From the NCBI RefSeq assembly GCF_014773265.1, contig NZ_JACWMY010000008.1, forward strand, positions 1 to 64,000: 64,000 bases of DNA, read 5' to 3'. A model generated the notes under the pieces. The model was not told where the DNA came from, searched no databases, and saw only the letters and a program-made list of their open reading frames with translations. The number at the start of each line of letters is the position of its first letter. Position 1 is the first letter of the stretch. Source of the DNA: Mucilaginibacter pankratovii. GTDB taxonomy: Bacteria > Bacteroidota > Bacteroidia > Sphingobacteriales > Sphingobacteriaceae. This document shows positions 8,530 through 61,816 of the stretch, one piece after another. A program made the position numbers and the translations under genes.

Positions 8530-8611
8530 GTCATTGCGAGGCACGAAGCAATCTCTACGCAGGACAAGCTGCCGTGTATAGTTTAGAGATTGCTTTGTTC
8601 CTCGCAATGAC
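8530..8611. repeat. palindromic repeat, GTCATTGCGAGG family (copy 1)
   Basis: Arms GTCATTGCGAGGCACGAAG with CAATCTCTA (8530 on) and TAGAGATTGCTTTG then TTCCTCGCAATGAC (to 8611). Length 82 bp, non-coding. Related copies: 18627-18721, 26174-26297, 51618-51711, 61669-61816 and the GIY-YIG-bearing element 15487-15918. Confidence 0.8.
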
Positions 8612-13810: not shown

Positions 13811-14958
13811 AGAACAGCCTAATTTGGTTTTGCAGAATAGCCGTTGGGCTACTGTTCATCTTCTCGGGGCTGATCAAAGCCAACGACCCACTTGGTTTTT
13901 CTTATAAACTGGAAGAGTACTTCGAGGTTTTTCACCTCACTTTTTTAAATGGCTTTGCGCTAAGTGCTGCCATTATTCTTTGCGCGCTGGAAATGCTGCT
14001 GGGCTTTGCCCTGCTGGTAGGCACGCGCGCGGTAACCGTGATTTGGGGATTGCTCTTGCTTATCACCTTTTTCGGCTTCCTTACCTTTTACTCGGCCTAT
14101 TTTAAAGTGGTGCAAACCTGCGGTTGTTTTGGCGATGCCATTCCGCTTACGCCTTGGCAGTCGTTTAGTAAAGATATGGTGCTGCTGATTTTAGTGCTGG
14201 TGCTTTTTCTCAACCGCAAGGCCATCCAACCGCTGGTAAAACAAAAAACCGGGGACAAATTATTGATCGGTGCTACGGTATTATCGCTTGGCTTTGGCTT
14301 ATACACCTATAACTTTTCGCCAATAGTGGATTTCCTGCCTTATAAAATTGGTGCCAATATTTTAGAAGAGATGAAAACACCGCCGGGTGCGCCTGCCGAT
14401 GTTTACGAGATCACCTATCATCTTAAAAACAAAAAGACCGCCGAAACCAAAGTGATGACGGATAAGGAATACCTGAAAACCGCCATCTGGAAAGATACCA
14501 ACTGGGAAATTGTGGGCAACCCCGAAAGCGTTTTGCTTAAAAAAGGCTTCGAACCCAAAATACGCGATCTGAATATACAAGATGCCCAGGGCAATAACTA
14601 CAACCAGGAGTTATTATCAATTCCGTTTTATAGTTTGGTAATTGTGGCTTACAACCTCGAAGAAACAAATGTAGAAGCAATTGGGCGCATCAACGCCTTG
14701 GCGGCAAATCTTAAAGATAATTTTAATACCCGTGTAGTGTTGCTCACTTCAAATCCGCCGCAAAGTGCCGAGGCATTTGCAAAAAAGAACAACCTGGTAA
14801 GCGAATTATTTTACGCCGATGGCGTTCCGTTAAAAAGTATGGTACGCGCTAACCCCGGTGTTATATTAATGAAGAATGGCGTTGTTATTAATAAATGGCA
14901 TTACCATGGTTTGCCAAAGTACGAGGATTTAGTAAAGGAATATTTTAGCAAGCAATGA
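13807..14958 (+). CDS. BT_3928-type DoxX/MauE-like membrane protein with thioredoxin-like tail
   Basis: 383 aa. The N-terminal half has four hydrophobic segments (about 5-24, 45-68, 72-95, 118-137) of the DoxX/MauE type, with Cys-Gly-Cys in VQTCGCFGD, a motif of methylamine-utilisation MauE and BT_3928 proteins. The C-terminal part (about 240-383) resembles a thioredoxin fold without a CxxC. This suggests redox or quinone-linked membrane work, substrate unknown. Coupled to DUF1599 upstream (ATGA) and aroK downstream (4-bp overlap). Confidence 0.8.
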   Translation: MKNSLIWFCRIAVGLLFIFSGLIKANDPLGFSYKLEEYFEVFHLTFLNGFALSAAIILCALEMLLGFALLVGTRAVTVIWGLLLLITFFGFLTFYSAYFKVVQTCGCFGDAIPLTPWQSFSKDMVLLILVLVLFLNRKAIQPLVKQKTGDKLLIGATVLSLGFGLYTYNFSPIVDFLPYKIGANILEEMKTPPGAPADVYEITYHLKNKKTAETKVMTDKEYLKTAIWKDTNWEIVGNPESVLLKKGFEPKIRDLNIQDAQGNNYNQELLSIPFYSLVIVAYNLEETNVEAIGRINALAANLKDNFNTRVVLLTSNPPQSAEAFAKKNNLVSELFYADGVPLKSMVRANPGVILMKNGVVINKWHYHGLPKYEDLVKEYFSKQ

Positions 14959-15470
14959 GCCGGGTATATTTAATAGGATTTATGGGCTGCGGCAAAACCA
15001 GCTGGGGCAAAAAATTGGCCGCAGGTTTAGGCTATAATTTCATAGACCTGGACCATGTGCTGGAAGCACAGGTAGGTAGTACCATTGCCGAATATTTTGC
15101 CAGCCACGGCGAAGAGGCTTTCCGCAAGCTGGAATCGGAAGTGCTAAAACAAACCGAATACCCGGAGAACGTCATCGTATCTACCGGCGGCGGCCTGCCC
15201 TGCTTTTTTGATAATATGGACTGGATGAACAGCCATGGCCAAACCCTATATATCCAGCTATCTCCAAAGGGCCTTGCTTCCCGTTTAGAAAATGCCAAAA
15301 CACCACGCCCTGTGCTGCAAGGCAAAAAAGGCGACGAACTGGTGGCTTTTATAGAGCACAAATTAGCCGAACGCGAAGGCTTTTACCTGCAAGCCACACA
15401 TTATGTGGATGGGATTGATATGAGTGTGGAGAAGTTAGTGGAGATAGTGGGGTTGGAAAAGATAGCGTAA
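14955..15470 (+). CDS. aroK: Shikimate kinase
   Basis: 171 aa. P-loop GFMGCGKTSWGKKLA (about 8-22), the shikimate-binding DLDHVLE and FRKLESEVL, and VSTGGGLPC. It phosphorylates shikimate at the 3-hydroxyl in aromatic amino acid synthesis. Last gene of the DUF1599/DoxX-like/aroK run. The transcript would enter the palindromic element at 15487. Confidence 0.95.
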   Translation: MSRVYLIGFMGCGKTSWGKKLAAGLGYNFIDLDHVLEAQVGSTIAEYFASHGEEAFRKLESEVLKQTEYPENVIVSTGGGLPCFFDNMDWMNSHGQTLYIQLSPKGLASRLENAKTPRPVLQGKKGDELVAFIEHKLAEREGFYLQATHYVDGIDMSVEKLVEIVGLEKIA

Positions 15471-15486
15471 CACACATTTCCGCCCT

Positions 15487-15918
15487 GTCATTGGGAGCGA
15501 TAGCGTGGCAATCTCATAGGACATTCGGATTAGCAGGTGCTACATGCTTGCCACGAAGCTAATCTTACCACCCGGCGCTCAAATCTAACCATTCAGGGTT
15601 ATCGGCAACAATCAAGTCTATTTTCTTCTTCCTCGAACCTGCCTTAAGCTGCTTTTCCCGGGCAATTGCATCTTGTACCCATTGAAACTCCTCGTAATAA
15701 ACTAATTTACTGCATTGGTATTTCGCGGTAAAGCCTTGATTTATCTTTTCGCGATGTTGCAAAATTCTGCTCTCCAAATTATTGGTTACGCCAATATACA
15801 GAACATTATTAGAAGCGTTCGTTACAATGTAGACATAGTATTGGTGGACTTTCGTGATGGTTACTTAGCATAGGCGCTATTTGTCCTATAAGATTGCCGC
15901 GCTATCGCTCGCAATGAC
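15487..15918. mobile_element. GTCATTGCGAGG-family element with 37-bp terminal inverted repeats carrying a GIY-YIG frame
   Basis: The left end 15487-15523 starts GTCATTGGGAGCGATAGCG and ends CTCATAGGACA; the right end 15882-15918 is its inverted copy, matching at 34 of 37 positions. The same words form short non-coding palindromes elsewhere; the closest is 26174-26297, with CTCATAGGAC/GTCCTATGAG inside. Here about 360 bp with a nuclease-like frame separates the two arms. No direct target duplication is evident. Whether the element moves is unknown. Confidence 0.65.
15565..15858 (-). CDS. GIY-YIG nuclease-like frame without a standard start codon
   Basis: The frame is open from 15864 to the stop at 15565. 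It reads ITKVHQYYVYIVTN, then NNVLYIGVTNNLESRILQHR, then AIAREKQLK and ADNPEWLDL. This is a complete small GIY-YIG domain of the UvrC-N/Slx1-like type: YVYIV and YIG motif halves, catalytic Arg in LESRILQH, and the metal-binding Glu of REKQLK. The only ATG/GTG/TTG in frame is TTG at 15777, which would remove both motif halves. ATC at 15858 sits where homologues usually have ATG, so the gene may be a start-codon mutant or use a rare start. Confidence 0.65.
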   Translation of the reverse strand: MTKVHQYYVYIVTNASNNVLYIGVTNNLESRILQHREKINQGFTAKYQCSKLVYYEEFQWVQDAIAREKQLKAGSRKKKIDLIVADNPEWLDLSAGW

Positions 15919-15940
15919 ATGGAGGTGAGCTAATTCTCCT

Positions 15941-16450
15941 CTACACCAAATAAACCGCATCCTCCTCACCTTCTACATCTAAAACAACGCTTACGTGTTC
16001 TTTGATAACGGTAGAGAGGGCCATGCCGGCGTAATCAGTTGCAAGAGGGAAACTTTTGTGGTTACGGTCTACCAGGACAACGGTGCGGAGCTTTTTTAGG
16101 GGTACATCCAGAAAAACGCCGAAGCCATAGGCCAAGGTTTTACCACTGTTAAGCACATCATCAACCAGTACGATCACCTTATTGCTGCATTCTTCTATCT
16201 CGAAGTTGATATGGGCGCTGAGGCTGGTGCTATCCTTTTCTAATTCTATTGTAAGCAGGCGGCTGCTGAAGGGGGCAATTTTATCCAATACAGCCTTCAG
16301 TCTTTTGGCAACATGGTTACCACGCGGCAGGATGCCGGCGATAAGGATCTCCGTTTCGTCGAAATTATCTTCCAGTATCTGGTAAGCAATACGGTCTATC
16401 TTTTGCTGTATCTGCGTACTGTTTAATATCAGGAGTTTTTTATCGGGCAT
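15941..16450 (-). CDS. Phosphoribosyltransferase (PyrR/type I PRTase family)
   Basis: 169 aa type I PRTase fold. The PRPP-binding loop is VIVLVDDVLNSGKTL (about 91-105), preceded by a PxxG-type loop in AGILPRGNHVAKRL and followed by the hood strand VVLVDRNHKSFP. The length and loop resemble PyrR-like uracil phosphoribosyltransferases, but substrate specificity cannot be assigned. The neighbouring aroK is convergent across the GIY-YIG element. Last gene of the minus-strand run from 18305. Confidence 0.8.
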   Translation of the reverse strand: MPDKKLLILNSTQIQQKIDRIAYQILEDNFDETEILIAGILPRGNHVAKRLKAVLDKIAPFSSRLLTIELEKDSTSLSAHINFEIEECSNKVIVLVDDVLNSGKTLAYGFGVFLDVPLKKLRTVVLVDRNHKSFPLATDYAGMALSTVIKEHVSVVLDVEGEEDAVYLV

Positions 16451-18626: not shown

Positions 18627-18721
18627 GTCATTGCGAGGAACGAAGCAATCCCCGGCAAGCAGTTCGGACTTGCAAGGCGGCTCTGCTTGCCGGGGATTGC
18701 CACGCTATCGCTCGCAATGAC
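18627..18721. repeat. palindromic repeat, GTCATTGCGAGG family (copy 2)
   Basis: GTCATTGCGAGGAACGAAGC with AATCCCCGGCAAGCAG pairs with CTGCTTGCCGGGGATTGC and CGCTCGCAATGAC. Length 95 bp, in the gap between yebC and the DUF2442 gene, non-coding. Confidence 0.8.
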
Positions 18722-26154: not shown

Positions 26155-26173
26155 AACCCATAATAACCGCCGT

Positions 26174-26297
26174 GTCATTGCGAGGAGCGGCGTGGGGCTG
26201 CGTAATGGGGCGACGTGGCAACCTCATAGGACAAGCATCGGTACTTTGCAAGGTGGCTAAACGTCCTATGAGGTTGCCGCGCTTCGCTCGCAATGAC
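26174..26297. repeat. palindromic repeat, GTCATTGCGAGG family (copy 3)
   Basis: Outer arms GTCATTGCGAGGAGCG and CGCTTCGCTCGCAATGAC; inner arms GGCAACCTCATAGGAC and GTCCTATGAGGTTGCC. Length 124 bp. The inner words match those flanking the GIY-YIG frame at 15487-15918. Confidence 0.8.
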
Positions 26298-26320
26298 ATA
26301 CTTTTAAGTTACTATTGTCT

Positions 26321-51542: not shown

Positions 51543-51711
51543 CGTCTTTGCGAGCGATAGCGTGGCAATCATCTGCAGGCAGAGCGGGCTATAAGGCAGC
51601 CTGTTTCTAACCCCCGCGTCATTGCGAGGAACGAAGCAATCTCCCGATAAGCAGGGCGGACTTGCACAGCGGCTTGTCCAACGTAGAGATTGCTTCGTTC
51701 CTCGCAATGAC
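51543..51711. repeat. palindromic repeat, GTCATTGCGAGG family (copy 4 plus a half copy)
   Basis: A half element (CTTTGCGAGCGATAGCGTGG from 51545) is followed by a full 94-bp element GTCATTGCGAGGAACGAAGC ... TTCGTTCCTCGCAATGAC (51618-51711). Non-coding, between the DUF4349 gene and ettA. Confidence 0.75.
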
Positions 51712-61658: not shown

Positions 61659-61668
61659 TTCGTTTCGT

Positions 61669-61816
61669 TTTTGCGAGCGAAGCGTGGACAACCGACCGAA
61701 GGGAGCTCATTGATACCTTAAAGAATAAATTTAAAACATCAATAATCATCGGCATGAAGAGCTACTTTGCAAATCCGACCTGCTTATCGGGGGATTGCTT
61801 CGTGCCTCGCAATGAC
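61669..61816. repeat. palindromic repeat, GTCATTGCGAGG family (decayed copy 5)
   Basis: The left end TTTTTGCGAGCGAAGCGTGG (61667 on) and the right end GGGATTGCTTCGTGCCTCGC then AATGAC (to 61816) are the two arms; the middle is unrelated sequence. Length about 148 bp. Confidence 0.6.

Follow-up and report, generated by a model that had tools for sequence, protein, structure and literature searches.

The window analysed here comprises 64,000 nucleotides of Mucilaginibacter pankratovii (contig NZ_JACWMY010000008.1, positions 1 to 64,000) and contains a GIY-YIG nuclease frame enclosed by inverted copies of a short palindromic repeat, with a shikimate kinase gene on one side and a phosphoribosyltransferase-domain gene on the other. 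The features of this locus are as follows:

14955..15470, forward strand: flanking shikimate kinase gene, here called aroK (Pfam SKI)
15480..15925, no strand assigned: whole gene-bearing element of 446 bp, with 44-nt inverted arms and 358 nt between them
15486..15523, forward strand: left REP-like unit of type A, with a TGTC tag, the stem ATTG../..CAAT and the inner extension CATAGGACA
15568..15864, reverse strand: GIY-YIG nuclease frame of 99 codons, stop-free, with the standard start codon missing
15882..15919, reverse strand: right REP-like unit of type A, an inverted copy of the left unit
15941..16450, reverse strand: flanking gene for a phosphoribosyltransferase-domain protein (Pfam Pribosyltran, pyrR-like; the name pyrR is presumed)

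The two arms (15480-15523 and 15882-15925) are inverted, 44 nt each and 89% complementary, and the outer tag of the left unit is directed away from the nuclease gene. The first-pass annotation had described 37-bp inverted ends with 34 of 37 matches, and this core was confirmed at 15487-15523 and 15882-15918 (92% matching). Its description of the enclosed frame as a GIY-YIG nuclease with intact motifs also held, the frame being free of stops, matching the Pfam GIY-YIG domain PF01541 with 65.8 bits (cut-off 22.6) and keeping the catalytic columns. Residues Y12, Y23, R33, E70, and N89 of the window protein P0001 were invariant in an alignment of three sequences (A1), as were the matching columns Y6, Y17, R27, E64, and N83 in an alignment of 13 sequences (A2), and these Tyr, Tyr, Arg, Glu, and Asn columns are taken to be the conserved catalytic residues. 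At ~95 aa the nuclease is hardly more than its catalytic domain, and the solved structures that it matched by sequence were two UPF0213 proteins (1zg2 and 1ywl). A defence role was considered and set aside, PADLOC returning just weak matches to a homing-endonuclease model (E 0.0035) and to UzuA (E 0.0066).

The N-terminus of the window protein reads TKVHQYYVYI compared to MKIHQYYVYI in an intact relative in genome G021. Intact relatives carry ATG at the start position, the homologous codon in the window copy is ACG, and no in-frame ATG, GTG, or TTG occurs upstream of the conserved part of the window nuclease. The start codon had previously been noted as lost through an ATC in place of ATG; the loss was upheld, the codon was not, as ATC only precedes the ACG at the start position. 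The window copy is probably decaying and, because the start codon is gone, is unlikely to be the source of the short copies, a role that had been suggested for it.

Besides the gene-bearing copy, the window holds five geneless inverted dimers and one single unit, and all five of the gene-free palindromes previously placed at 8530, 18627, 26174, 51618, and 61669 were present (no strand assigned):

8530..8611: geneless dimer of type A
18627..18721: geneless dimer of type A
26173..26298: geneless dimer of the window repeat, its inner CATAGGACA common with the gene-bearing copies C33 (the window copy) and C28
51618..51711: geneless dimer of type A, plus the extra single unit at 51544-51562
61667..61816: geneless dimer of type A with a diverged left end

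The palindromes of these five dimers were delimited at 8531-8610, 18628-18720, 26175-26296, 51619-51710, and 61668-61815. The window contains 13 occurrences of the pattern TCATTGCGAGCG with up to 2 mismatches, where 5.0 would be expected and 0 of 100 shuffles reached 13, and the unit head GTCATTGCGAG was found 140 times genome-wide compared to once for the reversed control.

Seven GIY-YIG matches were identified in the genome, two in long frames of 626 and 456 aa, the former presumably UvrC, and five in small genes. Repeat units lie on both sides of three of the small genes (C33, C31, and C34:85568) and on one side only of C28; the flanks of the fifth, C34:118127, were examined and showed no such palindromes. 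The standard start codon is missing in both clade-1 copies of this genome (C33 and C28), the C31 nuclease has type-A repeats, an ATG start, and both ends, and the C34:85568 nuclease, with one stop in the gene, pairs with another repeat designated type B (TGTCATTTCGA...). The C34 gene without palindromes (118127-118339; L010 1408-1826) directly adjoins a tRNA-Val gene, as if inserted there, and a second partial tRNA-like stretch, read by eye, lies on its other side. The genome also has eight Y1_Tnp matches, and no head of type A or B lies within ~1.5 kb of any of the eight loci. Close to the three best Y1_Tnp genes (L016, L017, and L018) are repeats of other sequence, direct or inverted, so that the genome seems to hold HUH-linked and GIY-YIG-linked repeats together. 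As the Y1_Tnp genes lack type A and B heads, the nuclease is the best candidate partner of these repeats.

Comparative analysis of the genus revealed GIY-YIG matches in 100 of 100 genomes, among which 73 loci were examined, comprising the 69 best-ranked of the other genomes and four from the genome itself, so that the rates below refer to these loci and not to all GIY-YIG genes. An inverted-repeat pair scoring at least 16 within 350 bp was found at 56/73 nuclease loci, leaving 17/73 below the threshold, compared to 1/279 controls at positions shifted by 750-1100 bp inside the same loci; the threshold of 16 was chosen after earlier results had been seen, and the patterns for types A, B, and C were written after the inverted-repeat results. 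Outward-facing typed units of one repeat type at both sides were present at 58/68 loci with full flanks and at 0/279 controls, loci cut by contig ends having been kept among the 73 of the inverted-repeat count and excluded from these 68. Inward-facing units on both sides, expected where dimers flank the gene, occurred at 11/68 loci (0/279 controls). Typed units (A, B, or C) were present at all 73 loci, on both sides in 61 and on one side in 12. Type C, with TCATGCTGA heads, is a third repeat type accompanied by a separate nuclease clade at two loci (L078 and L092, in G021 and G034).

Repeat type and nuclease clade are matched: when the types are mapped onto the tree of the nucleases, 2 changes are required, the minimum for three types, compared to 12-15 in 200 shuffles. 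The tree rests on few columns and has many open forks, with an SH-aLRT of 98 for the split of type A from type B/C nucleases. The 46 clade-1 loci, in 39 genomes, include 38 genes without and eight with an in-frame stop, counted within the matched stretch. Among ten close nuclease pairs tried, six were computable and gave dN/dS values of 0.05-0.10 in five and 0.35 in the sixth, and the close pairs are under purifying selection.

The gene-bearing unit occupies different places in related genomes. By the neighbour on either side, 29 clade-1 nuclease loci fell into 15-23 contexts (ten samples) compared to one for 29 aroK loci, and by the neighbours on both sides into 19-24 compared to five; the aroK control used 29 of the 30 most similar loci, from genomes somewhat closer to the window than those of the nuclease set. 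Among the 30 aroK loci, the window site is occupied by the nuclease unit in two genomes (G000 and G021), by a geneless dimer in three (G013, G017, and G074), and by a gap of <70 bp in six loci (L100, L101, L115, L116, L119, and L122), the rest having other sequence, in several cases with two small genes, or an unrecognised neighbour. In G025 the space from aroK to the phosphoribosyltransferase gene (L095 974-1511) holds two small overlapping genes of 80 and 100 aa, with similar ones in several relatives; these genes resemble a toxin-antitoxin pair in size and layout only.

A second site carries a nuclease unit and, after it, a geneless dimer in G013, one unit with an end like that of the dimer in G091, dimers alone in G074 and G017, and a remnant together with two type-B dimers in G031. 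The right end of the second-site unit gave dozens of listed matches, mostly of 90-100% identity, in G013, G031, G091, G017, and G074. A greater similarity of the nuclease unit between G091 and G013 (98-99%) than of its surroundings (mostly 0.90-0.97) was not used, as other blocks reached 0.98-1.0. Across 120-160 kb of G091, G013, and G031, the presence of dimers varied with replacement of the neighbouring intergenic DNA, and neither a clean empty site nor a target duplication was seen at the dimer sites of these three relatives. The same was true of the two nuclease sites, neither set of sites offering a clean empty one by which a target duplication could be judged, and transposition itself was not seen in the relatives compared. 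In the comparison of empty sites that the first-pass annotation had proposed, the unit was variable by site (dimers, genes, and short gaps) and clean empty sites were lacking.

The abundance of the repeat was not clearly tied to the nuclease once relatedness was considered. The median number of repeat heads per Mb was 22.0 in the 39 genomes with a clade-1 nuclease compared to 8.8 in the 61 without (p = 1.6e-6); with relatedness considered, in the 30 genomes with a tree, the association gave p = 0.086 and independent pairs were uninformative. The expectation that short copies would be more numerous in genomes with the GIY-YIG copy was therefore borne out strongly by the raw difference and was unsupported once relatedness was considered. 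Genome G017 has 579 type-A heads (70.6 per Mb) and no clade-1 nuclease among the matches listed, reflecting either that the nuclease was recently lost or that the repeat spread without it.

Outside the genus, flanking inverted repeats were found at 74/97 loci compared to 14/365 controls, with 23/97 loci below the threshold. These comprised 14/17 plasmid loci (3/68 controls), for which 17 of 35 matching records in the plasmid collection were examined, and 60/80 loci on genome contigs (11/297 controls), representing the best 80 of 578 relatives. The plasmid loci that passed included those from Azospirillum lipoferum, Novosphingobium aromaticivorans, Sinorhizobium meliloti, Rhizobium, Shinella, Aeromonas caviae, Planktothrix agardhii, Spirosoma oryzicola, and Neisseria gonorrhoeae, and the passing contig loci, assigned by record title, included those from Alpha-, Beta- (Neisseria), Gamma-, and Deltaproteobacteria, Winogradskyella, Chloroflexi, Nitrospinae, Elusimicrobiales, and Uhrbacteria. 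The single Armatimonadetes locus, the single Ignavibacteriales locus, and both Thiobacillus loci were below the threshold. Outward-facing [CT]GTCA[TC] heads occurred at 69/95 non-genus loci with full flanks (41/365 controls), inward-facing heads on both sides at 45/95 (50/365 controls), and a CGTC/TGTC-tagged hairpin on both sides at 35/95 (6/361 controls). Although the search demanded neither feature, the stem of these cross-phylum hairpin units starts with AT in 84/103 and their tail is CCA in 78/103, with stem/loop sizes of 8/4 in 39, 10/3 in 34, and 9/3 in 19 of the 103 units.

On the A. lipoferum plasmid AZO_p3 (L134 1492-1785) a GIY-YIG gene lies between sufB and sufC with CGTC repeats on both sides, and the Azospirillum end is dispersed, with 45 matching places (E <=0.1) among the five A. 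lipoferum plasmids listed. The relative in N. gonorrhoeae (46.6% identity over 89% of the query, E 4e-16) lies amid CGTCATTCCCGCG repeats. The link between nuclease and ends had been regarded as open to dismissal as chance if genes of this family occurred mostly without the ends; the search of related genomes gave the opposite result, since most of the loci examined, in the genus (56/73 and 58/68) and in other phyla, bear their own repeat at their ends.

The element at 15480-15925 is read as that form of a two-part system, made up of a nuclease and its cognate palindromic repeat, in which the gene is present, and a probability of roughly 0.6 is given to this reading, which includes the spreading of the repeats by the nuclease. 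In the proposed mechanism, a GIY-YIG nuclease of ~95 aa encoded between two inverted copies of a cognate CGTC-type palindrome, which is also dispersed gene-free, would recognise and cut its own repeat folded as a hairpin in single-stranded DNA. The hairpin might be cut during replication or uptake, and the dimer could then be copied elsewhere, gene included or not, as the break is repaired or the freed strand is used again. Cutting together with host repair or replication would in this way copy or move geneless dimers and gene-bearing unit alike, in the manner proposed for RAYT transposases and GTAG REPs. GIY-YIG enzymes hydrolyse DNA and are not known to join strands, and spread would therefore need host repair. 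Nuclease and cognate repeat most likely form a REPtron-like pair, within which the nuclease would recognise the repeat and may be what drives the spread of the short copies. The wider proposal, that small GIY-YIG nucleases are the dedicated mobility enzymes of CGTC REPs and represent another REPtron class of independent origin, one in which a hydrolytic nuclease lacking strand-joining chemistry amplifies its hairpin repeats in many phyla, is advanced tentatively, at slightly less than even odds.

A different role for the nuclease, as an Ssn-like policing or DNA-uptake enzyme that cuts single-stranded repeats and shapes transformation and recombination, with the repeats spreading mainly by other means and the gene homing by repair at its own sites, would agree with the N. 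gonorrhoeae relative amid CGTCATTCCCGCG repeats, with the reported cutting by Ssn, and with the site replacements in sister genomes, which resemble recombination and not clean insertion. The variable contexts and the repeat-bounded gene units in several phyla fit a moving unit, and this alternative, which differs from the two-part system mostly in what moves the repeats, is considered rather unlikely.

The remaining two accounts take the nuclease out of the process altogether. If a RAYT/HUH transposase moved the repeats with the GIY-YIG gene as a passenger, a source of such enzymes would be available in the eight Y1_Tnp matches of the genome, and GTAG REPs are linked to RAYT/Y1 HUH enzymes (Di Nocera et al., 2013; PMC3733652). 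The nuclease tracks the repeat type (2 changes compared to 12-15), as a passenger would not, and with a type A or B head at 0/8 Y1_Tnp loci, the three best of which bear other repeats, a RAYT was rejected as the mover of the repeats in this genome and the account as a whole is very improbable. Even less credible is an accumulation of independent small elements in shared intergenic hot spots, for which the type-B dimers of G031, where its sisters hold a type-A nuclease unit, would be an example. Chance pairing is refuted because the shifted controls nearly lack flanking repeats (outward pairs at 58/68 loci compared to 0/279 controls), and the repeat types are specific to nuclease clades. The G031 site itself (G031:C1 ~497800-498200; L151) holds two near-identical type-B dimers of ~132 bp close together.

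The two-part reading names a candidate enzyme for CGTC REPs and predicts which nuclease fits which repeat, and it can be put to the test using a 95-aa protein together with a 30-nt hairpin. Should the repeats prove to be mobilised by the nuclease, the drivers of miniature palindromes would include hydrolytic GIY-YIG enzymes alongside HUH transposases, with a mechanism that would have to depend on host repair.

The repeats have a close counterpart in the CGTC REPs, which have been reported from five phyla and, in the part of the paper available, are said to be without a dedicated transposase, with no Y1_Tnp gene reported there as flanked by CGTC units (Di Nocera et al., 2013; PMC3733652). In the same text, CGTC REPs are marked by an unpaired CGTC/TGTC tag, an AT stem start, a stem of 8-9 bp, a loop of 4-5 nt, and a CCA tail, and A. 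lipoferum, S. meliloti, and “N. aromatocivorans” (Novosphingobium aromaticivorans), all among the loci tested here, are named (PMC3733652). The window ends share the tag (TGTC) and the AT stem start (ATTG), the cross-phylum units are mostly CCA-tailed, and both systems have dimers and many dispersed copies. Unlike the REPs of that text, for which no enzyme of their own is reported (PMC3733652), the repeats here are accompanied by a GIY-YIG gene, and the type A stem of the window is broken, with at most 5+3 bp and an internal loop, and is followed by a CT-rich tail (CTC/CTT) instead of CCA. Folded singly, the seven type A units of the window were not distinct from shuffles (best z -1.6), one folded dimer reached z -6.2, and two cross-phylum units folded alone gave z -4.0 and -3.3.

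The arrangement also resembles the RAYT/REPtron: a small nuclease gene is flanked by its own repeat, dimers occur without the gene, each genome has few copies of the gene, and the enzyme clade matches the repeat type. It differs in that the enclosed gene encodes a GIY-YIG enzyme and not a Y1 HUH transposase, the two belonging to unrelated superfamilies. Free-standing GIY-YIG homing endonucleases share the catalytic domain, and weak PHROG matches of the nuclease are so named, whereas the present element has inverted repeats at both ends and no room for a separate DNA-binding domain. No group I intron or intein location was found for it, the element lying between the shikimate kinase and phosphoribosyltransferase genes.

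The nearest enzymes may be the Ssn GIY-YIG nucleases of Neisseria, which in a 2025 Nature Communications paper reportedly cut single-stranded Neisseria repeats and modulate transformation, and the N. gonorrhoeae relative with 46.6% identity may itself be a published Ssn. Likenesses include protein superfamily, size, and the position of the Neisseria relative amid dispersed repeats; single-strand cutting and a role in DNA uptake are reported features of Ssn and putative ones of the nucleases described here. In the openly licensed literature no paper joining GIY-YIG enzymes with REPs was noticed, and one may exist. The kind is probably known in part, since CGTC REPs are in print and the 2025 paper reportedly describes related Ssn nucleases. 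The enclosed, site-variable unit goes beyond Ssn, unless that paper already has it, and the wide, clade-matched enclosure of a nuclease gene by its own CGTC-type repeats is a useful addition to what has been described for either system.
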